Part shown: piece after piece, positions 11,795-19,852 of the stretch
Layout: each line of letters begins with the position of its first letter
Position numbering within the stretch: the stretch's first letter is position 1
Source of the DNA: Mycobacterium sp.
Lineage (GTDB): Bacteria; Actinomycetota; Actinomycetes; Mycobacteriales; Mycobacteriaceae
Length of the DNA: 19,852 bases
Assembly: GCA_019246375.1 (NCBI GenBank)
Contig: JAFAQO010000265.1
Location: 1-19,852, forward strand
Reading direction: 5' to 3'
Made by a program: the position numbers and the translations under genes
Notes under the pieces: model-generated
The model's database searches: none
Seen by the model: only the letters and a program-made list of their open reading frames with translations
Told to the model about the DNA's origin: nothing

Positions 11795-11822
11795 TGAACC
11801 GAAAGGGCGCTTCAGGCGTGTC
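11795..11822 (+). promoter_or_regulatory. SigL-dependent promoter of sigL-rslA (autoregulation)
   Basis: TGAACC at 11795-11800 and CGTGTC at 11817-11822 are separated by exactly 16 bp. This matches the -35/-10 pair I recall as the M. tuberculosis SigL consensus. Transcription would begin about 7 bases on, close to the GGGAGG Shine-Dalgarno at 11829-11834, giving a very short leader. It lies between mapA and sigL and explains positive autoregulation of sigL. Confidence 0.85.
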
Positions 11823-11842
11823 ATCACCGGGAGGTGAATGGA

Positions 11843-12373
11843 GTGCCTGCAGTTGTCAGCATGGCGGCTTCGCAAGAAGCCGCTTTGATGAAGGCGCTCT
11901 ACGACGAGCACGCCGCGGTGTTGTGGCGGTATGCGATGCGGCTTACCGGAGACCGGAATCGCGCTGAAGACGTCGTACAAGAGACGCTGCTGCGCGCCTG
12001 GCAGCACCCGGAGGTTGTCGGCGACACCGAGCGGTCAGCGCGGGCGTGGCTGTTCACCGTCGCCCGCAACTTGGTCATCGACGAGAGCCGAAGCGCACGG
12101 GCGCGCAGCGAAGTCACCTCGCTGGACAAGGCACCGGAGCACACGGGTCCCGACGAGGTCAACGCGGCACTCGACCGGCTGCTGATCGCCGACGCCCTCG
12201 CGCAGCTGTCGGCCGAGCATCGAGCGGTCGTTTGCCGCTCCTACTACAGAGGCTGGACCACCGCTCAGATCGCTGCGGATCTCGGAATTGCCGAGGGTAC
12301 CGTGAAGTCGCGACTGCACTATGCCATGCGAGCCATGCGATTGACCCTGCAGGAAATGGGGGTTACCCGATGA
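11843..12373 (+). CDS. sigL: ECF RNA polymerase sigma factor SigL
   Basis: This is a 176-residue extracytoplasmic-function sigma factor. Region 2 is visible as LYDEHAAVLWRYAMRLTGD...AEDVVQETLLRAWQHPE followed by RAWLFTVARNLVIDESR. Region 4 is the helix-turn-helix LAQLSAEHRAVVCRSYYRGWTTAQIAADLGIAEGTVKSRLHYAMRAMR. The C-terminus LQEMGVTR is like the M. tuberculosis protein. I chose GTG 11843, 8 bp after GGGAGG; GTG 11834 (+3 residues) and ATG 11861 are alternatives. SigL activity is held in check by the downstream RslA. In M. tuberculosis it directs envelope-associated, polyketide synthase and secreted thiol-oxidoreductase genes (from memory). Confidence 0.95.
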   Translation: MPAVVSMAASQEAALMKALYDEHAAVLWRYAMRLTGDRNRAEDVVQETLLRAWQHPEVVGDTERSARAWLFTVARNLVIDESRSARARSEVTSLDKAPEHTGPDEVNAALDRLLIADALAQLSAEHRAVVCRSYYRGWTTAQIAADLGIAEGTVKSRLHYAMRAMRLTLQEMGVTR

Positions 12374-12447
12374 TGGCACTGCCGGCCATCCGCGCCGCGA
12401 TCGGCTCCGAATACCAGATGCGGTACGAGATGAGGGTTAGACGATGA
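12370..12447 (+). CDS. Possible coupling micro-ORF between sigL and rslA
   Basis: A 24-25 codon ORF (MALPAIRAAIGSEYQMRYEMRVRR) exactly bridges the gap between sigL and rslA. Its two tandem ATGs at 12370 and 12373 overlap the sigL stop, and its TGA at 12445-12447 overlaps the rslA ATG at 12444 (ATGA). The peptide has no recognisable domain and is basic at its end. If translated, its role may be to carry terminating ribosomes from sigL to rslA and so keep sigma and anti-sigma in balance. It may equally be fortuitous. Confidence 0.35.
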   Translation: MMALPAIRAAIGSEYQMRYEMRVRR

Positions 12448-13217
12448 TGACGTTATGGGGCCCCAGCCCCCCTGATGGCGAGGAACGCGCCATGGGCCAA
12501 TCTTCTGGCGACCATGAGTACGCGATGTGGGACGCCGCCTATGTGCTGGGCTCACTCTCGCCCACCGACAGGCGGGAGTTCGAAGCGCACATGGGCGCGT
12601 GCCCGTCGTGCCGCAACGCTGTCGCCGAACTCGGCGGCATGCCGGCGCTGTTGTCACAGCTCGACCGCGACGAGTTGGCCGCGATGGACTCAGAAACCGA
12701 CCAAGCTGACCGCAATGGCGGAGAACCGTCGCTGCCCCCGGAGTTGCTGCCGTCGCTGCTGGCCAAGGTGAGTCGGCGACGGCACCGGTCCCGCCTCATG
12801 ACGTGGACGGCTGGGGCGGCCGCGGCCGTGGTGCTGGCGATCAGTGTGTTCGTCGGTATTCATGGCCATCTGTCGACGTCAGCGCCGGTGCCGCCGCAGG
12901 CCAGCGTGTTGACGCAGTCGATGAACCAAGTCGGCACCACCGCGCTGGCGTCCTCGTTCTCGCTCAGCAGCAAGAGCTGGGGGACCGTCGTCGACATGAA
13001 GTGTGTGTGCCTGGCTCCGATCAATGCCCGCCACGACAGGCTGGCGATGGTGGTGGTCGGTCGCGACGGTAGCCGCACCCGGCTGGCGACTTGGACAGCC
13101 GAACCGGGTCACACTGCGACTCCGGCCGGCAGCATTTCGACGCCGGTCACCCAGATCGCCGCGCTGCAAGTGGTTTTGGCGGACAACGACCGGCTGTTGC
13201 TGGAGCGCTCGCTGTAG
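12444..13217 (+). CDS. rslA: Zinc anti-sigma factor RslA (regulator of SigL)
   Basis: This is a 257-residue single-pass membrane protein. The cytosolic N-terminal domain has the zinc anti-sigma (ZAS) motif His49-x3-Cys53-x2-Cys56 (HMGACPSC) after YAMWDAAYVLGSLSPTDRREFEAH. A basic stretch (RRRHRSR) precedes one membrane helix at about 117-139, followed by an extracytoplasmic domain ending in DNDRLLLERSL. That domain carries a CVC pair, conserved in M. tuberculosis RslA as I recall. In the known system RslA binds SigL, and oxidation with zinc loss releases it. ATG 12444 follows GAGGG; ATG 12492 is an alternative start with GAGGA upstream. It is co-transcribed with sigL. Confidence 0.93.
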   Translation: MMTLWGPSPPDGEERAMGQSSGDHEYAMWDAAYVLGSLSPTDRREFEAHMGACPSCRNAVAELGGMPALLSQLDRDELAAMDSETDQADRNGGEPSLPPELLPSLLAKVSRRRHRSRLMTWTAGAAAAVVLAISVFVGIHGHLSTSAPVPPQASVLTQSMNQVGTTALASSFSLSSKSWGTVVDMKCVCLAPINARHDRLAMVVVGRDGSRTRLATWTAEPGHTATPAGSISTPVTQIAALQVVLADNDRLLLERSL

Positions 13218-13228
13218 AAATCCGCGCA

Positions 13229-13247
13229 GGGTGAACTGACTTCACCC
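13229..13247. promoter_or_regulatory. Inverted repeat over the -35 box of the ThDP operon
   Basis: GGGTGAA (13229-13235) and TTCACCC (13241-13247) form a perfect 7-bp inverted repeat with a 5-bp centre. It lies 12 bp after the rslA stop and covers the -35 element TGAACT at 13232-13237. It may be a repressor operator for the MarR protein encoded at the end of the operon. Alternatively the RNA hairpin may be a T-less terminator for rslA. The sequence alone does not decide. Confidence 0.55.
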
Positions 13248-13259
13248 GCCGGTCGTGTA
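13232..13259 (+). promoter_or_regulatory. SigL-type promoter of the ThDP/KAS III operon
   Basis: TGAACT at 13232-13237 and CGTGTA at 13254-13259 are separated by 16 bp, the same spacing as the sigL promoter upstream, with one base different in each box (TGAACC, CGTGTC). The -10 ends 6 bases before ATG 13266, so transcription is expected at or beside the A of the start codon, giving a leaderless mRNA. There is no Shine-Dalgarno in front of that ATG, which agrees. Confidence 0.7.
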
Positions 13260-13280
13260 ACTGGCATGCCAGTGCTACAC
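13255..13280. promoter_or_regulatory. Palindrome across -10, transcription start and start codon
   Basis: ACTGGCATGCCAGT at 13260-13273 is a perfect 14-bp palindrome containing the ATG of the first gene of the operon. It is flanked by GTGTA (13255-13259) and TACAC (13276-13280), which extend the dyad to 12 pairs with a 2-base offset (GC at 13274-13275). Position and length fit a MarR-type operator that would block RNA polymerase. In a leaderless RNA the same bases could not fold before initiation, so a DNA-level role is favoured. Confidence 0.6.
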
Positions 13281-15020
13281 CGGGTGGTCGATCACATCGT
13301 CGAGCACCTCGCGCGAACCGGAGTCGACTACGTCTTCGGTGTGGACGGCGCCAACATCGAAGATCTCTACGACGCCGCATATTTCCGGTCCGATGTCACC
13401 GCGGTGCTGGCCAAGCACGAGTTTTCCGCGGCCACTATGGCTGACGGGTACAGCCGCAGCGGCGCGGGACTTGGTGTGGTCGCGGCGACGTCGGGCGGCG
13501 GCTCGCTGAACCTGGTGCCCGGCCTGGGGGAGTCGCTGGCCAGCAGGGTGCCGGTGCTGGCGCTGGTCGGCCAGCCGGCGACCACCATGGACGGCCGAGG
13601 CAGCTTTCAAGACACTAGTGGCCGCAACGGATCGCTGAATGCGGAGGCGTTGTTTTCCGCCGTGTCGGTCTACTGCCGACGCGTGTTGAAGCCCGCCGAC
13701 ATTGTTTCCGCATTGCCGGCCGCCGTGGCTGCGGCGCGAACGGGCGGCCCGGCAGTATTGTTGCTGCCTAAGGATATTCAGCAGGCGGACGTCCCGCGGA
13801 TCGGATACGCCAATGGGCGGGAGGTGGAAAGCTCCGGAGCGTCCATCGGTGATCCGCATCCGATCGTGCGCGCGCTGCGGAGGGTGACCGGGCCGGTGAC
13901 GATTATCGCCGGTGAGCAGGTGGCCCGCGATGACGCCCGATCCGAGCTGGAGTGGCTGCGCGCGGTGCTGCGGGCCCGAGTCGCGTGCGTACCCGATGCC
14001 AAAGATGCCGCGGGCATACCGGGTTTCGGGTCATCGTCGACGCTGGGAGTGACCGGGGTGATGGGACATCCGGGGGTGGCCGAAACCGTCGCGGGCAGCG
14101 CCTTATGCTTGGTGGTCGGCACTCGGCTGTCGGTGACTGCCCGCAGCGGCCTGGACGATGCGCTGGCAGCGGTGCCCACAATCTCGATCGGGTCGGCGCC
14201 GCCGTATCTGGCCTGCACCCACGTGCATACCGACGACCTTCGCGCGTCGTTGCGAATGCTCACCGCGGCACTGTCTGGACGTGGGCGGCCAACCGGACTG
14301 CGGGTCCCTGATGCGGTGTCGCGCACCGAGTTGAGCCCGCCTGCTTTCGACGGTTCGGGTGTGCGCTACCGCGACGCCATGGTCACGCTTGATCGGGTGT
14401 TGCCTGACCGGGTGGACATCGTGGTCGACGCCGGCAACACGGGCGCGGCCGCCATTCATCACCTGCCCGTGCGCCGCAATGGGCGGTTCCTGGTCGCACT
14501 CGGCATGGGCGGCATGGGGTACAGCTTCGGCGCCGGTATAGGAATGGCGTTCGGCCGCGCGGTGCGCGAGGGCGCGGACAGCCGGCGCGTCGTCGTGATC
14601 GCCGGGGACGGTGCATTTTTCATGCACGGAACGGAGGTGCACACCGCGGTGCAATACCGCCTTCCGATCACATTCGTGCTGTTCAACAACAACGCACACG
14701 CCATGTGCGTGACCCGTGAGCAGCTGTACTACGACGACCTGTACAGCTACAACCGGTTCACACCTAGTCGGCTGGGTTCCGGCCTGGCCGTGATGTTCCC
14801 AGGACTGGCAGCCGTCGATGTCGCCGATGCAGAGGCATTCGACGCGGCGTTGAAAACGGCGTTGGACGCCGACGGTCCATCGGTAGTGAGCGTGGAATGC
14901 GCTGCCGACGAGATCCCACCGTTCGGACCGTTCCTCACCCAGCCATTCACCAAACCCCTTAAGTCACAGAAGATCCCGATCACGAAGGAGAACCGCACCG
15001 ATGTCGCTGCCAGCGCTTGA
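13266..15020 (+). CDS. Thiamine diphosphate-dependent enzyme, acetolactate synthase/decarboxylase-like
   Basis: This is a 584-residue ThDP enzyme with the three-domain fold of acetolactate synthase and 2-oxo acid decarboxylases. The cofactor-activating Glu52 is in AKHEFSAATMADGY. The ThDP/Mg motif begins at Gly447-Asp448-Gly449 and ends at Asn474-Asn476 (GDG-x24-NNN, then AHAM). The middle domain (VTIIAGEQVARDDAR...) resembles the FAD-type domain of the family. It could decarboxylate a 2-oxo acid and transfer the acyl anion to an acceptor, making an acyloin, 2-hydroxyketone or 2-acetohydroxy acid; the real substrate is unknown. It is not the housekeeping IlvB: no ilvN follows, and it heads a different operon. 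Its 3' end overlaps the SRPBCC gene by 20 bp. It is preceded by the SigL-like promoter. Confidence 0.88.
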   Translation: MPVLHRVVDHIVEHLARTGVDYVFGVDGANIEDLYDAAYFRSDVTAVLAKHEFSAATMADGYSRSGAGLGVVAATSGGGSLNLVPGLGESLASRVPVLALVGQPATTMDGRGSFQDTSGRNGSLNAEALFSAVSVYCRRVLKPADIVSALPAAVAAARTGGPAVLLLPKDIQQADVPRIGYANGREVESSGASIGDPHPIVRALRRVTGPVTIIAGEQVARDDARSELEWLRAVLRARVACVPDAKDAAGIPGFGSSSTLGVTGVMGHPGVAETVAGSALCLVVGTRLSVTARSGLDDALAAVPTISIGSAPPYLACTHVHTDDLRASLRMLTAALSGRGRPTGLRVPDAVSRTELSPPAFDGSGVRYRDAMVTLDRVLPDRVDIVVDAGNTGAAAIHHLPVRRNGRFLVALGMGGMGYSFGAGIGMAFGRAVREGADSRRVVVIAGDGAFFMHGTEVHTAVQYRLPITFVLFNNNAHAMCVTREQLYYDDLYSYNRFTPSRLGSGLAVMFPGLAAVDVADAEAFDAALKTALDADGPSVVSVECAADEIPPFGPFLTQPFTKPLKSQKIPITKENRTDVAASA

Positions 15021-15666
15021 CGATATCGTCACCCATACCGGCACTACCGATCCGATCGACGGTGTAGTACGGATCGAGACCTCGCCGCGCGAAAAAGCCA
15101 CGCCGATCATCATGGAGATGATGCGGTCGGTCTACCCGCATGATGAAGTCTTCGGCGAGTACTGCACGATCAACGACTACATCGACTGTCCGCCTGACGA
15201 GCTGTTCGACTACATGGCGGACACCCGATGCCTCGAGGAGTGGACCTATAGTCTGCGCGGCTTCACACCAACCGATGAACCCGGCCTGTGGCTCGCCTAC
15301 GACCGGCTCGGGTCGGGAACCAAGATCTACACCCGCACTATCGCCAACAACGAATCTCGCACCGTCGACTACCACTGCGCCTGGGATCAGGGCAAGCATC
15401 TCTGGATGATCTACATGATGCGGGTCGTCGACGCCCAAGTGGTCCTCGACAAGCCTGGCTCGGTGATGCTGTGGACCAATTGCCATCATCCGTTCTACGA
15501 CCACAACCCCTACCCGGAGACCGCCCCGCCGAAGCGACCGGTGTGGGTCGGCGACTTCTGGGACATGTTCGGCGCCGGCCACCTGCTGGAAATGAAGAAC
15601 CTCAAGGCGATTGCTGAATACCGCCACCGCAACGGCCTGCCGGTAACGCCGGCCTGGATGAGTTGA
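15001..15666 (+). CDS. SRPBCC (START/Bet v 1-like) superfamily protein, uncharacterised
   Basis: This is a 221-residue protein that I assign to the SRPBCC ligand-binding fold from its pattern: INDYIDCPPDELFDYMADTRCLEEWTYSLRGF (57-88), then alternating strands rich in aromatic residues and a long C-terminal helix (FWDMFGAGHLLEMKNLKAIAEYRH). Such proteins bind hydrophobic ligands or act as cyclases/aromatases and small-molecule lyases. A cluster Cys161-His162-His163...His168 (NCHHPFYDH) is unusual and could bind metal or act in catalysis. The ATG at 15001 has AAGGAG about 10 bp upstream inside the ThDP gene, with which it overlaps by 20 bp; the KAS III gene begins 4 bp after its stop. Its function in the pathway is unknown. 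Confidence 0.7.
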   Translation: MSLPALDDIVTHTGTTDPIDGVVRIETSPREKATPIIMEMMRSVYPHDEVFGEYCTINDYIDCPPDELFDYMADTRCLEEWTYSLRGFTPTDEPGLWLAYDRLGSGTKIYTRTIANNESRTVDYHCAWDQGKHLWMIYMMRVVDAQVVLDKPGSVMLWTNCHHPFYDHNPYPETAPPKRPVWVGDFWDMFGAGHLLEMKNLKAIAEYRHRNGLPVTPAWMS

Positions 15667-15670
15667 GGGC

Positions 15671-16693
15671 ATGGTGAACCAACCCAGCGTCAGCCTGACC
15701 GACATTTCCACATATCTGCCTGGCGACCCGATCGGCGCCGACTACTATGCGCAATTCGCCGAATCCGACGACTTACGTGACAATTTGATGTTCCGTGCAC
15801 CCAAGTTTCGCCATCACATCGCGGAGGGCGAGACCGCGATCGACATGGTGGAGCGAGCCGCGGAAGGCTTGATCGCGCGACACGGCCAGGACGTCATTTC
15901 CAACATTGACGTGCTGATCACCCACACCCAGATGCCCGACATGCCTTTCTACGGCGCGGGCGGCGGCATCGCGCACCGCTTGGGCATGCGCCCATCCTGG
16001 GTGCTTGATCTACACAACGGCGGATGCGCGGCATTTGTGTTGGGGCTCAAGGTGGCCCGTCAACTGCTGACGGCGGGCGAGGGGCACACGGCGTTGATCG
16101 CCATCGCGCAGAATGCCGCTGGTCAGGTCTTCGACCAGCCAGGTGTCCGGCGCAAGGCGCAGGCGGCGGTGCCCGGCGACGGCGCTGCCGTCGGACTGGT
16201 TACCGTGTCGGAGGATTCACCGATTCTCGGCGTCGAGTGCCGCACGTACGGCGAATACGCCGGTGAGATGACGATCACCACCGGTGGGCCCCGAAAGTGG
16301 TGGCAACCCGGTTCCGGCGAATCCTACATCGGTTTCAGCGAAACCAAGATCACTAAGGTGCTGGCCCGGGGCAACCGCCAGGTTCCCGAAGTCGCGCTCG
16401 CGGTTTGTGACCGAATAAACCTGCGCTCCAAGGATGTTGACTTGCTTGTCACCAACCAGCCCAATCGGGTGTTCCTGCGCAACTGGCGCGAGGCGCTTGA
16501 AGTGCCGCCCGAACGTCATCGCGACACCTTTGAGGAGTGCGGGAATCTGTTCGGTGCCGGTATCCCGGTCAACCTGGACCGCGCCATATCCGATGGTCAG
16601 CTCAAGGCCGGCGATGTCGTGCTGATGGCCGCCTTCGCGCACGCAGGCGACTTTGCCGGCGCGGCGGCACTCCGCTGGGGCGGACGGGGCTGA
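15671..16693 (+). CDS. KAS III-like (FabH-superfamily) protein lacking the catalytic His
   Basis: This is a 340-residue thiolase-fold protein of the 3-oxoacyl-ACP synthase III type. Cys119 lies in the nucleophile motif LHNGGCAAFVLGL, and GDGAAVGLV (169-177) matches the family's mid-protein motif. In the C-terminal half, TNQPN (261-265) aligns with the PHQAN of FabH, so Asn262 replaces the catalytic His. CGNLFGAGIPV (290-300) aligns with YGNTSAASIP and keeps the Asn at 292. The expected triad is therefore Cys-Asn-Asn, suggesting acyl transfer or another reaction rather than standard malonyl decarboxylative condensation. No carrier-protein gene lies nearby, so CoA thioesters are the likely substrates. 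Start ATG is 4 bp after the SRPBCC stop; the TGA overlaps the next ATG by one base (TGATG). Confidence 0.87.
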   Translation: MVNQPSVSLTDISTYLPGDPIGADYYAQFAESDDLRDNLMFRAPKFRHHIAEGETAIDMVERAAEGLIARHGQDVISNIDVLITHTQMPDMPFYGAGGGIAHRLGMRPSWVLDLHNGGCAAFVLGLKVARQLLTAGEGHTALIAIAQNAAGQVFDQPGVRRKAQAAVPGDGAAVGLVTVSEDSPILGVECRTYGEYAGEMTITTGGPRKWWQPGSGESYIGFSETKITKVLARGNRQVPEVALAVCDRINLRSKDVDLLVTNQPNRVFLRNWREALEVPPERHRDTFEECGNLFGAGIPVNLDRAISDGQLKAGDVVLMAAFAHAGDFAGAAALRWGGRG

Positions 16694-17760
16694 TGTCCCC
16701 TGTGGCGACCCCGGTCATCGCCGGCGCAGCGTTGCCCAGTGCGATCGATCCGCTGGCGTTGTCCCTGAACGAGAATCCGTTCCCGCCGTTGCCGGCGGTG
16801 CGGTCGGCGCTGATCAGGTCGATCGACGCCGCCAACCGCTATCCGGAGTTTCTGCCGGAGCGGCTGCGCTGCTTGATCGCCGACCATATCGGCTTGGACG
16901 CAGACCAGTTGGTGCTCGGCGCCGGTGCGACGGGTGTGGTGATGCAGGTCCTGCAAGCGCTGACCTTCCCGGGCGACACGATCGTCATGGCGTCACCGAC
17001 ATTCGACGGCTACCCGATCTTCGCGCAGATAGCCCGCCTTGTTTCGGTGACTGTGCCGCTCGACGAGCACGGCCATCACGACCTCGACGCCATGGCCGAC
17101 GCCGCCGCGCGGGCACGGGTCGTGGTGCTGTGCCGGCCACACAACCCGACGGGCACCCTGGAACCCGTCCGCGAATTGATCCGGTTTCTGCACCGGGTAC
17201 CGCCCGACACGATCGTGGTGCTCGACGAAGCGTACATCGAATTCGTCGCACCCGAACACCGTATCGACGCTGCGGCATTGATCGCCCGCTTTTCGAACGT
17301 GGTGGTGGTGCGGACCTTTTCAAAGGCGTATGGGCTGGCCGGACTGCGGATAGGTTACGCAGTCGGCTCGGCAGAGTTGACCGAGACCCTATGGACCAAC
17401 CAACTGCCCTTCGGCATGGGCATCACAAGCTTGCTTGCGGTAGCGGCGTCCTATGCAGCCGAACGTCAACTGCTGCAGCGGGTTCGGCTGATCACTGCCG
17501 AACGCCGCTATCTGGGCATGCGGTTGAGCGCGGCAGGCGTGTACAGCACCGACGCGCATGCGAACTTCGTGTACCTGCCGCCGCAGGGCCGGCAGTGGTG
17601 CGAGGTGTTCGCACACACCGGACTGCGGGTGCGCTATTACGCCGACGGCGGGGCGCGGATCACGGTCGGTGGCCGTGCGTCGACGATGGCGGTGTTGTCG
17701 GCAGCGGAAACATGGCCTGCCTTAGCCCGAGCGGCTAAATCCCGTCGCAAAGTGCGGTAA
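16693..17760 (+). CDS. HisC-like PLP-dependent aminotransferase (fold type I)
   Basis: This is a 355-residue aminotransferase of the histidinol-phosphate aminotransferase type. Motifs are LSLNENPFPP (23-32), PHNPTG (149-154; usual form NNPTG), LDEAYIEF (177-184; Asp178 and Tyr181 contact PLP), and TFSKAYGLAGLRIGY (208-222) with the Schiff-base Lys211 and Arg219. It is unlikely to be the histidine-pathway enzyme, because it lies in the ThDP/KAS III operon rather than with hisBD. A role transferring an amino group to a ketone made by the ThDP or KAS III protein, or supplying a 2-oxo acid to the ThDP enzyme by deaminating an amino acid, is plausible. The ATG overlaps the KAS III stop by one base. 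Confidence 0.87.
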   Translation: MSPVATPVIAGAALPSAIDPLALSLNENPFPPLPAVRSALIRSIDAANRYPEFLPERLRCLIADHIGLDADQLVLGAGATGVVMQVLQALTFPGDTIVMASPTFDGYPIFAQIARLVSVTVPLDEHGHHDLDAMADAAARARVVVLCRPHNPTGTLEPVRELIRFLHRVPPDTIVVLDEAYIEFVAPEHRIDAAALIARFSNVVVVRTFSKAYGLAGLRIGYAVGSAELTETLWTNQLPFGMGITSLLAVAASYAAERQLLQRVRLITAERRYLGMRLSAAGVYSTDAHANFVYLPPQGRQWCEVFAHTGLRVRYYADGGARITVGGRASTMAVLSAAETWPALARAAKSRRKVR

Positions 17761-17769
17761 GAAAAGGGC

Positions 17770-18273
17770 GTGGCCGCTCCGAAATCCGACAAAGATCCAA
17801 TCGCTCAGGCCAGGGCCAATTGGGAGCGATCCGGCTGGGCTGACGTGGCGCAAGGCATGGTCGCGGTGACGTCGGTGATGCGGGCGCACCAGATCCTGCT
17901 CGCTCGTGTCGAGAGCGCGCTGCGGCCTTACGAGCTGAGTTTTTCCCGCTTCGAGTTATTGCGGCTACTGGCATTCAGCCGCACCGGAGCATTGCCGATC
18001 ACCAAGGCCTCCGACCGGCTGCAGGTTCATGTCACCAGCGTCACCCATGCGATCCGCCGGCTGGAAGCCAACGGGCTGGTGCAGCGAGTGCCGCACCCTA
18101 CCGACGGGCGAACGACGCTGGTGCAGATCACCGATCTGGGCCGCTCGACTGTCGAGGACGCCACCGTGACGCTCAATGAGCAGGTGTTCGCCGATATCGG
18201 GATATCCGCGCGTGAGTCACAGGCATTGGTGTCGTCGATCGAGACGTTGCGGCGGCGCGCCGGCGACTTCTGA
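17770..18273 (+). CDS. MarR-family transcriptional regulator (Rv0737-like)
   Basis: This is a 167-residue winged-helix regulator. After an N-terminal helix that would form the dimer interface (WADVAQGMVAVTSVMRAHQILLARVESALRPYELSFSRFELLRLLAFS), the DNA-binding region runs PITKASDRLQVHVTSVTHAIRRLEANGLVQRVPHPTDGRTTLVQIT, with the wing Asp112-Gly113-Arg114. MarR proteins usually repress nearby genes and let go when a phenolic or other small ligand, or an oxidant, binds. This copy has no cysteine, so it is more likely ligand- than thiol-controlled. GTG 17770 is 9 bp after the aminotransferase stop, so it is probably co-transcribed and may autoregulate the operon. M. tuberculosis Rv0737 is, from memory, a similar protein directly after rslA. 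Confidence 0.88.
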   Translation: MAAPKSDKDPIAQARANWERSGWADVAQGMVAVTSVMRAHQILLARVESALRPYELSFSRFELLRLLAFSRTGALPITKASDRLQVHVTSVTHAIRRLEANGLVQRVPHPTDGRTTLVQITDLGRSTVEDATVTLNEQVFADIGISARESQALVSSIETLRRRAGDF

Positions 18274-19506
18274 TTACGCTAAGACTGAGTGCAGCGGAAT
18301 CGTCGCCGTCACCGCTGTGCCGGCTCCGGGCCGGGACCGGACGTTGAGCCGCCCCCCGACGAGCTCAGCGCGCTCGGCCATCGACAACACCCCGTAGCCG
18401 CCCGTCTCGTCGCTGCCCACCGGATTCTCGAAAGTGTCGAAACCCACTCCGTCGTCGACGATTTCCAACCGGGCCGTATCGTCATCCACCGCGAACCGCA
18501 GCCGAGCCATCGTCGCATCGGCGTGTTTGACGATGTTCTGCAATGCCTCCTGGGCGATGCGGTACAGGGCAAGCTCGATGTGCTCGGGCAACCGCGCATC
18601 GGAAAGTTCCAGCTCCAGGTCGATCTGCGGCACCGATCTGGCCAGGCTGGCCAGGCCGCCGGCCAGGCCGAGATCGTCGAGGACGGGTGGGCGCAGCCCG
18701 CTGATCGCGGCGCGCGCCTCTTCCAGCGTCAATCGCGCGAGCTGGCGCGCCTCGCCGAGCTGTTGTGAAGCTTCGATCGGGTCGTCGCCGACGGCTCGCG
18801 CCGCGGCGTCGAGCCGGTAGGACAGCGTGATGAGGCGCTGCGAGATGCCGTCGTGGATGTCACCGGCCAGTCGGCGGCGTTCGATCTCCTGCGCTTCGAT
18901 CACTTGCTCGACGAACAGCTCGTGGGCACGTTCCCGAGCCACCAGCTGTCGATGCAACCGTGCTTGATGCAGCGCCCCGGCGATCAACCGGCCGATGACT
19001 CGTAACAGCTCAACGTCACCATCGGTGAATTCCCGGCGCTCGACGGTGTGCACGTTGAGCACCCCGACCAGTCCACCGGGGTCGGTTTCCATCGGCACCG
19101 ACACCATCGAGGTGAAGTCGCGTCCGCGCAGCGATTGGATGGGCAGGTAGCGCGGGTCGGCTTCCTTGTCGTCGCTGATCACCACCGGCTTACGATGGCT
19201 AGCCACCCAACCGGAAATCCCGGATCCCAGCGGCAGCTGAATCTTTCCGACCTGGCCGTCGAACGGCGGCGTCGCACCGGCGAGGGTAAGCGAGCGATCG
19301 CTGTCGTCGAGCACGTGCACAAAACAGACGTCGGTGCCGGTGGCCGCGGTGATCATGCGGGCGGCCGCGGCCGCCAGCGGCTCGACTCCCGGACCACTGG
19401 ACGCTGCCTGGATGAGTTCACGCAGCAAGACCAGCTCACGGTCGGCGTCGACGAGATCACGCACGGCGTTCGAGCTGCGGGTGTCCCGGGACTGTTCAGA
19501 TGTCAT
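18274..19506 (-). CDS. Two-component sensor histidine kinase, GAF + HisKA_3 + HATPase
   Basis: This is a 410-residue soluble sensor kinase of the NarX/DevS-like class. A GAF domain covers about 40-182 (AAAARMITAATGTDVCFVHVLDD ... FTSMVSVPM ... GVLNVHTVERREFTDGDVELLRVIGRLIAGAL). The dimerisation/phosphoacceptor helix has ERRRLAGDIHDGISQRL with phospho-His218. The ATPase has the N-box EALQNIVKHA (Asn324), DDGVGF (351-356) and GGYGVLSMAERA. No membrane helix is visible, so it senses a cytosolic or diffusible signal; no haem His is obvious in the GAF. Its ATG overlaps the regulator stop by 4 bp. It ends exactly where the convergent MarR gene ends, without intergenic bases. Confidence 0.93.
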   Translation of the reverse strand: MTSEQSRDTRSSNAVRDLVDADRELVLLRELIQAASSGPGVEPLAAAAARMITAATGTDVCFVHVLDDSDRSLTLAGATPPFDGQVGKIQLPLGSGISGWVASHRKPVVISDDKEADPRYLPIQSLRGRDFTSMVSVPMETDPGGLVGVLNVHTVERREFTDGDVELLRVIGRLIAGALHQARLHRQLVARERAHELFVEQVIEAQEIERRRLAGDIHDGISQRLITLSYRLDAAARAVGDDPIEASQQLGEARQLARLTLEEARAAISGLRPPVLDDLGLAGGLASLARSVPQIDLELELSDARLPEHIELALYRIAQEALQNIVKHADATMARLRFAVDDDTARLEIVDDGVGFDTFENPVGSDETGGYGVLSMAERAELVGGRLNVRSRPGAGTAVTATIPLHSVLA

Positions 19507-19852
19507 TGGTAGATGCCTTCGCGCAATGCTGTCGCCACGGCGCCGGTTCGGTCGCTGACGCCGAGTTTGCGGTAGATCGAGCGTAAGTGGCTCTTGACCG
19601 TTTCCTCGCCGATGACGAGCTTGTTCGCGATGCCGCGGTTCGACAATCCAGTCACCATGCAGGACAGGATTTCGCTTTCGCGTTGCGTCAGTCCCTGTCG
19701 TGCACCGGGCCAGAACTCGTCGCGCTGCAGTCGCGCCGCGGTGTCGGCCGCCCGGGCGGCCATTTTCGGGTCGATCACGGTTTCCCCGTGGTGGGCCAGT
19801 TCCAGCTGGCGCACCAGTTCGTCGCTACCGATGCTCTTCAACAGGTAGCCGC
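19503..19852 (-). CDS. NarL/FixJ-family response regulator, C-terminal part (start outside window)
   Basis: This is the C-terminal part (about 116 residues) of a LuxR-type response regulator. It enters the window at GYLLKSIGSDELV, the end of the receiver domain. A linker follows, then the DNA-binding LuxR helix-turn-helix LTQRESEILSCMVTGLSNRGIANKLVIGEETVKSHLRSIYRKLGVSDRTGAVATALREG. The phosphorylated Asp lies beyond the window edge. The stop overlaps the kinase ATG by 4 bp (ATGA), so regulator and kinase form a cognate pair transcribed from outside the window. Target genes are unknown. Confidence 0.93.
   Translation of the reverse strand, partial: GYLLKSIGSDELVRQLELAHHGETVIDPKMAARAADTAARLQRDEFWPGARQGLTQRESEILSCMVTGLSNRGIANKLVIGEETVKSHLRSIYRKLGVSDRTGAVATALREGIYQ

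Follow-up and report, generated by a model that had tools for sequence, protein, structure and literature searches.

The window analysed here is the whole 19,852-nucleotide contig JAFAQO010000265.1 of a Mycobacterium sp. (assembly GCA_019246375.1), in which five genes lie directly behind those of the sigma factor SigL and its anti-sigma factor RslA. They encode a thiamine diphosphate (ThDP)-dependent enzyme, a small cyclase, a condensing enzyme (KAS) resembling β-ketoacyl-acyl carrier protein (ACP) synthase III (KASIII), an aminotransferase (AT) and a MarR-family regulator. We conclude that this operon probably makes a small aromatic metabolite, most likely of the carbazole type, and is switched on by SigL. 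Judged from their sequences, the enzymes form a distinct lineage of carbazole-synthase-type chemistry, a kind of pathway already known. A sequence-only reading had described five tightly packed genes on one strand, and the open reading frames bear this out: 48 bp separate the end of rslA (position 13217) from the first operon start, the first and second genes overlap by 20 bp and the third and fourth by 1 bp, and gaps of 4 bp and 9 bp precede the third and fifth genes. Its family calls for the ThDP enzyme, KASIII, the HisC/Pat-like AT and MarR were confirmed by domain and family matches; its SRPBCC call for the second protein found no support in Pfam, even with the cut-off relaxed to E 0.1, but is upheld by a match to the carbazole synthase CqsB2 in the PDB. 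Pairwise dN/dS (NG86, 6 pairs) was 0.06–0.11 for the cyclase and 0.11–0.32 for the other three enzymes.

Scanning one genome per species turned up 524 sites encoding a CqsB2 relative, of which the best 80 were kept. Twelve of these loci (six Streptomyces, three Nostoc, one Scytonema and two Syntrophus) make up a carbazole lineage; the cyanobacterial and Syntrophus loci, when checked, sided with it and not with the mycobacterial lineage. It includes a Streptomyces achromogenes locus (L120) with a 100% match to the CqsB2 fragment and the gene order KAS, cyclase, ThDP enzyme, squalene/phytoene-synthase-type protein, KASIII, ACP and AT. The other 68 loci have the form seen in the window, mostly ThDP–cyclase–KAS(–AT), and come from Mycobacterium, Nocardia, some Streptomyces and Streptacidiphilus, Segniliparus, Tsukamurella and scattered others. 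Residues Y144, Y172, H206 and E209 of CqsB2 were identical in all 12 carbazole-lineage rows and all 72 window-lineage rows, and again in all 57 rows of a second, partly overlapping set (58 cyclases minus that of L086, which has an in-frame stop and 144 amino acids). By the threshold used, the lineages are fixed for different residues at only two positions, and a further position is absent from one lineage; none of these is a proposed catalytic residue. The model of the window cyclase resembles CqsB2 by sequence and fold: the Foldseek alignment gave a TM-score of 0.64 with a poor root-mean-square deviation, and a second aligner gave 2.7 Å over 159 residues, residues 44–57 of the model being of low confidence. 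Some loci are the same contig taken twice (for example, L036/L192 and L048/L163), and identical stretches were removed only before the TGAACN-N16-CGT counts given below. Lone extra cyclase genes were also seen (L032, L033 and L051), with no adjoining KAS or ThDP gene, at loci where FAD_binding_3 monooxygenase-like genes are also present.

The ThDP enzymes of both lineages formed one clade (SH-aLRT 99) apart from nine further ThDP enzymes drawn from two Mycobacterium genomes. An acetolactate synthase identity was rejected, as the best 25 NCBIfam models listed all scored far below their cut-offs and the enzyme falls in this separate clade. A Planctomycetota ThDP enzyme lies on the carbazole side of the clade; in the metagenome-assembled genome (MAG) concerned (L139), the KAS groups with the mycobacterial lineage. 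Window-lineage ATs together with CqsB7-type ATs stood apart from four other ATs of the genus, with support of 81 in a first tree and 99 in a repeat tree that omitted seven rows, including the ATs (three from genomes, one from a MAG) that the first tree had placed within the window lineage. The four ATs left in the outgroup are, we assume, Pat- and HisC-like. Support for the forks beside CqsB7's own place was only 49 and 66. HisC was rejected as an identity for the window AT, whose scores of 311.1 and 232.5 bits lie under the cut-offs of 374 and 276.55 and which sits in the separate clade.

If the chemistry follows the carquinostatin/neocarazostatin pathway, the AT would convert an aromatic amino acid, most likely Trp, to a 2-oxo acid, most likely indole-3-pyruvate, and the ThDP enzyme would couple this acid with pyruvate. 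The KASIII-like enzyme would carry an acyl group on Cys119 and condense it with the acid from the ThDP step, with loss of CO2; the CqsB2-like cyclase would then close the ring on the arene, and loss of water would make it aromatic. The sequence-only reading had instead suggested an amino-ketone-like or related metabolite; on such a route the AT would come at the end, working on a ketone that the rest of the enzymes supply. The operon does encode such a pyridoxal phosphate-dependent aminotransferase, but its homologues in the known carbazole pathway act first and yield a keto acid (PMC7466098), and some window-lineage loci have ThDP–cyclase–KAS with no adjoining AT (for example, L132, L145 and L195), which would follow if the 2-oxo acid can come from a general AT. 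We rejected an amino-ketone product and regard this route as scarcely credible.

Several observations weigh against a carbazole product. The catalytic His of KASIII, present in all 12 carbazole-lineage rows, is Asn in all 73 window-lineage rows and in all 57 rows of the second set; the Cys is kept in 72 of the 73, and Asn292 and His324 in every one. The window enzyme thus lacks the Cys-His-Asn of CqsB1-type enzymes, one of the marks of the Cqs/Nzs pathway, and for that reason we do not file the operon as a member of that pathway but treat it as a variant that probably works like it. Because the His is replaced throughout the lineage, the condensation may differ; the labile β-keto acid may lose CO2 without the missing His, or the invariant His324 may stand in. 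Window-lineage KAS enzymes are only 25–27% identical to CqsB1-type enzymes, and in a KAS tree of 27 + 9 + 8 rows, part of the sequences fetched, the two lineages form separate clades (support 98 and 99), their union being set against eight FabH-type rows with support of 93. CqsB2 E105 is Asp in 72 of 72 and 57 of 57 window-lineage rows, and also in two of the 12 carbazole-lineage rows. In the first AT tree, long-branched sequences (a Bacteriovorax AT and three more ATs from genomes) fell among the window-lineage ATs. No ACP or classical KASIII was found near window-lineage loci in a single-sequence search of 141 loci that could miss a divergent ACP, and no mycobacterial carbazole or carbazole pathway showed up in a search of CC-licensed papers judged by listed results and abstracts.

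The missing ACP bears on a further claim of the sequence-only reading, that the product is made with no carrier protein. This may hold, insofar as none resembling CqsB6 was found near any fetched window-lineage locus. A CqsB6-type ACP together with a strong (>400 bits) CqsB5 match occurs at five of the 141 loci, all of them Streptomyces carbazole loci, and seven of the 12 carbazole-lineage loci also have neither. Weak matches to CqsB4, which is of the phytoene-synthase type, were seen near two Streptomyces window-lineage loci (L167 and L156).

The lineage-wide change in the KASIII active site, the low identity to CqsB1-type enzymes and the lack of a detected ACP would also fit the same chemistry on another substrate, in which the AT substrate is a branched amino acid or else Phe, Tyr or His, and the Cys-Asn-Asn KASIII takes another acyl donor or does not decarboxylate, giving another ring (for example, a naphthalene- or benzimidazole-like one). 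The best solved-structure match of the AT, a putative phenylalanine aminotransferase (4r2n), points the same way. The grouping of the AT with CqsB7 argues against such a product, as does the near absence of fixed differences between the two cyclase lineages, and we consider it unlikely, if a serious contender. A carbazole-type product remains our preferred reading of the chemistry.

Linkage to sigL was assessed on 60 loci, each fetched around a cyclase hit. The four enzymes lie behind rslA in 41, and in 37 of these 41 MarR follows; a lone cyclase accounts for three loci, two of them in genomes with the full operon elsewhere. The genes are thus not, as a rule, widely separated in relatives, and the set is widely kept in the genus, as the sequence-only reading had expected; its question of whether the set always follows sigL-rslA has the answer that linkage is common but not universal. 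ThDP–cyclase–KAS(–AT) also occurs in Nocardia, Streptomyces, Segniliparus and others.

The predicted control by SigL is well supported by comparison between loci. Promoters of the same N16 spacing had been proposed ahead of sigL and the operon, and both were located (Table 1). The operon's −10 hexamer ends just 6 bases short of the first start codon, and the transcript may therefore lack a leader. The sigL promoter of the window itself served as the yardstick for the motif. The strict pattern TGAACY-N16-CGTGTM matched three times in the window's own assembly (3.86 Mb, 80.7% complete) and its reversed-pattern control 0 times; the three sites precede sigL, the ThDP operon and the gene of a second SigL-like sigma factor, 61% identical to SigL. 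The relaxed pattern TGAACN-N16-CGT was found no more than 130 bp upstream of the ThDP gene in 72 of 73 sigL-linked loci, the sole exception (L070) having one base altered in the −35 element, as against 151 of 20,000 random windows from the same loci. Upstream of control genes it was found in 0/137 cases for KAS, 0/109 for AT, 0/63 for MarR, 0/53 for MAP and 4/141 for the cyclase, and it precedes 58 of the 75 sigL-like genes tested. Where the distance between rslA and the ThDP gene grows to 0.9–5.7 kb, the motif keeps with the ThDP gene. It was present at 11 of 53 unlinked loci, eight of them Nocardia, six of which have sigL-rslA nearby on the opposite strand. Ten further loci included two more sigL-linked copies, both with the motif, and five at a second chromosomal site, all with the motif; the operons at that site carry SigL-like (56–61%) and RslA-like (31–32%) genes of their own. 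The earlier proposal of a SigL-type promoter ahead of a small biosynthetic operon is therefore supported by motif conservation and by the controls.

The third strict site (contig C454, approximately 1256–1283; L281) lies 43 bases 5′ of the second SigL-like gene, which is followed by an open reading frame joining an RslA-like zinc finger to an AAA_16 ATPase region; a Rieske-like protein, recognised by eye, is encoded nearby. The second chromosomal home of the operon (L284–L288) adjoins proteasome and Pup-ligase-family genes, its neighbours having been checked in one locus. A 14-base perfect palindrome over the first start codon of the window operon (13260–13273) was considered as a MarR operator and rejected, as it is not kept in the relatives' promoters that were compared.

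Against SigL control stand the unlinked copies. Twelve of the 60 loci are Mycobacterium copies with no sigL linkage, ten of them lacking the upstream motif and two having it at −122 and −93; four more, likewise unlinked, are from other genera, and the three unlinked copies among the ten further loci have no motif. The resemblance between the promoters is, moreover, one of sequence, and consensus matches alone predict M. tuberculosis sigma-factor targets poorly, according to PMC4821874. These points would fit a coincidence in which another promoter reads the operon and the motif is a common extracytoplasmic function (ECF) promoter sequence. Such a coincidence would have to explain the motif's presence in nearly all linked loci against its scarcity in random windows, its moving with the ThDP gene in displaced operons and a strict form confined to three sites in the assembly, the other two ahead of SigL-type genes; we hold it to be very improbable.

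In M. tuberculosis, RslA frees SigL upon oxidation (PMC2877774). By extension, SigL released from RslA in the window's host would transcribe its own operon and the ThDP operon, whose promoters match TGAAC[CT]-N16-CGT. The M. tuberculosis MarR protein beside sigL-rslA, Rv0737, and its M. smegmatis homologue Ms_1492 bind the promoter of sigL-rslA and increase expression from it, according to a 2026 paper (PMC13002591); the window MarR shares their position beside sigL-rslA, a likeness of gene order only. Because of this binding, and because MarR stays beside rslA in 13 of 20 genomes that lack the cyclase, the window MarR most likely acts, by analogy, on sigL-rslA and not in the chemistry; the sequence-only reading had proposed instead that it gates the pathway in response to product or precursor.

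The distribution of the operon bears on the history of this switch. A cyclase match at E 1e-10 was found in 202 of 297 genomes of Mycobacterium, the genus being taken in its broad sense, decayed and contig-split copies included, and in 4 of 236 genera (14 of 396 genomes) in a phylum-wide draw. The 20 cyclase-less genomes with rslA that were examined comprise the 13 just mentioned, with rslA and MarR 19–79 bp apart (alignment ends), five with 267 bp to ~2 kb between them, one of which keeps the AT, and two with no MarR there. Decayed operon copies were seen in place in three genomes of ~3.2–3.3 Mb (L220, L221 and L222). On a MAP+SigL+MarR tree (38 genomes with and 18 without the operon), presence changes at least 12 times, five of the changes being forced by well-supported branches. 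The simplest reading is that the operon was present of old and lost repeatedly while the switch was retained; the change count alone is compatible with an alternative in which the operon may have been gained repeatedly at the sigL-rslA site.

We tentatively extend this reading, with slightly less than even confidence. The operon would represent a second, mycobacterial carbazole-synthase lineage, marked by the KASIII His-to-Asn change and found in about two-thirds of the sampled species, and SigL-RslA-MarR would be its dedicated switch, orphaned where the enzymes were lost (apparently in M. tuberculosis), the known targets being secondary. The generic ThDP/SRPBCC/KASIII/AT description is replaced by a testable pathway with predicted ring chemistry, whose cyclase is present in about two-thirds of the sampled Mycobacterium genomes. 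SigL-RslA, which in M. tuberculosis has been described as regulating cell-wall and polyketide genes, gains a likely older job, and a reason is suggested for the MarR regulator beside it. The gene set suggests that a mycobacterial natural product has gone unrecognised and that the stress-sensing switch, so far poorly understood, has a purpose here, and the lineage-wide Cys-Asn-Asn KASIII poses a clean enzymology question.

Other genes accompany some mycobacterial copies. Tailoring-type genes near them encode an FMO-like enzyme (20/141 loci), a FAD_binding_4 oxidase (20/141) and a FAD_binding_3 monooxygenase (18/141), and a methyltransferase and an FtsX-type permease also occur. Flavin oxidases lie between rslA and the ThDP gene in L166 (4525–7062) and L168, and a flavin monooxygenase, a methyltransferase and an FtsX-type permease do so in L066 (4537–10123). 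Behind the window operon, positions 18274–19841 hold a GAF histidine kinase and a LuxR-type (GerE) regulator, ending on the opposite strand.

Table 1. Promoters and genes of the sigL-rslA region and the adjoining operon in the window.
Feature	Position	Strand	Start codon	Basis or remark
SigL-type promoter of sigL	11795–11822	+		TGAACC-N16-CGTGTC
sigL, ECF sigma factor	11834–12373	+		Sigma70 regions 2 and 4; NCBIfam NF007227 above cut-off; name from family and position
rslA, zinc-finger anti-sigma factor	12444–13217	+		zf-HC2; synteny
SigL-type promoter of the operon	13232–13259	+		TGAACT-N16-CGTGTA; CGTGTA at 13254–13259
ThDP-dependent enzyme, CqsB3/NzsH (acyloin) clade	13266–15020	+	ATG	Pfam TPP domains; tree
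CqsB2-like cyclase, carbazole synthase homologue	15001–15666	+	ATG	Bet v1/SRPBCC fold
KASIII-like condensing enzyme	15671–16693	+	ATG	Cys119-Asn262-Asn292 where Cys-His-Asn is usual
Aminotransferase, class I/II	16693–17760	+	ATG	HisC/Pat-like; groups with CqsB7 (Trp to indole-3-pyruvate)
MarR regulator, last gene	17770–18273	+	GTG	Pfam MarR; positional counterpart of Rv0737/Ms_1492

Among known systems, scytonemin biosynthesis also uses a ThDP enzyme, ScyA, together with a cyclase, ScyC, that works on an indole-3-pyruvate product; it is not known to involve a KASIII or AT. ScyC was rejected as an identity for the window cyclase, the match being very weak (18.8 bits against a cut-off of 400). 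The sequence-only reading had named no described pathway with this gene set; all four enzyme families are in fact found together in carbazole pathways (PMC7466098 and PMC10100901). Those of carquinostatin A and neocarazostatin A (CqsB7, CqsB3, CqsB1 and CqsB2; NzsH/J/I) share with the window the four families in clustered genes, the Tyr-Tyr-His-Glu residues and fold of the cyclase, and the ThDP and AT clades. They differ in gene order (KAS–cyclase–ThDP against ThDP–cyclase–KAS–AT in the window), in having Cys-His-Asn where the window KASIII has Cys-Asn-Asn and Glu105 where its cyclase has Asp; near the window operon, unlike in Cqs, no CqsB6 ACP, CqsB5 classical KASIII or CqsB4-like prenyltransferase was found, and the sigma-factor promoter is a feature of the window. 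The chlocarbazomycin cluster of Streptomyces tubbatahanensis, likened here by its published description (PMC10100901), also has a HisC-annotated AT, a ThDP enzyme, a KASIII and an SRPBCC carbazole synthase; its FAD oxidoreductases are similar to the flavin oxidases near some mycobacterial copies, and it differs in having ACP and short-chain dehydrogenase/reductase (SDR) genes. The regulatory genes have their closest counterpart in M. tuberculosis SigL-RslA-Rv0737, which shows the same sigma, anti-sigma and MarR order; there rv0737 lies immediately downstream of sigL-rslA (PMC13002591), whereas the window has four biosynthetic genes between rslA and MarR.

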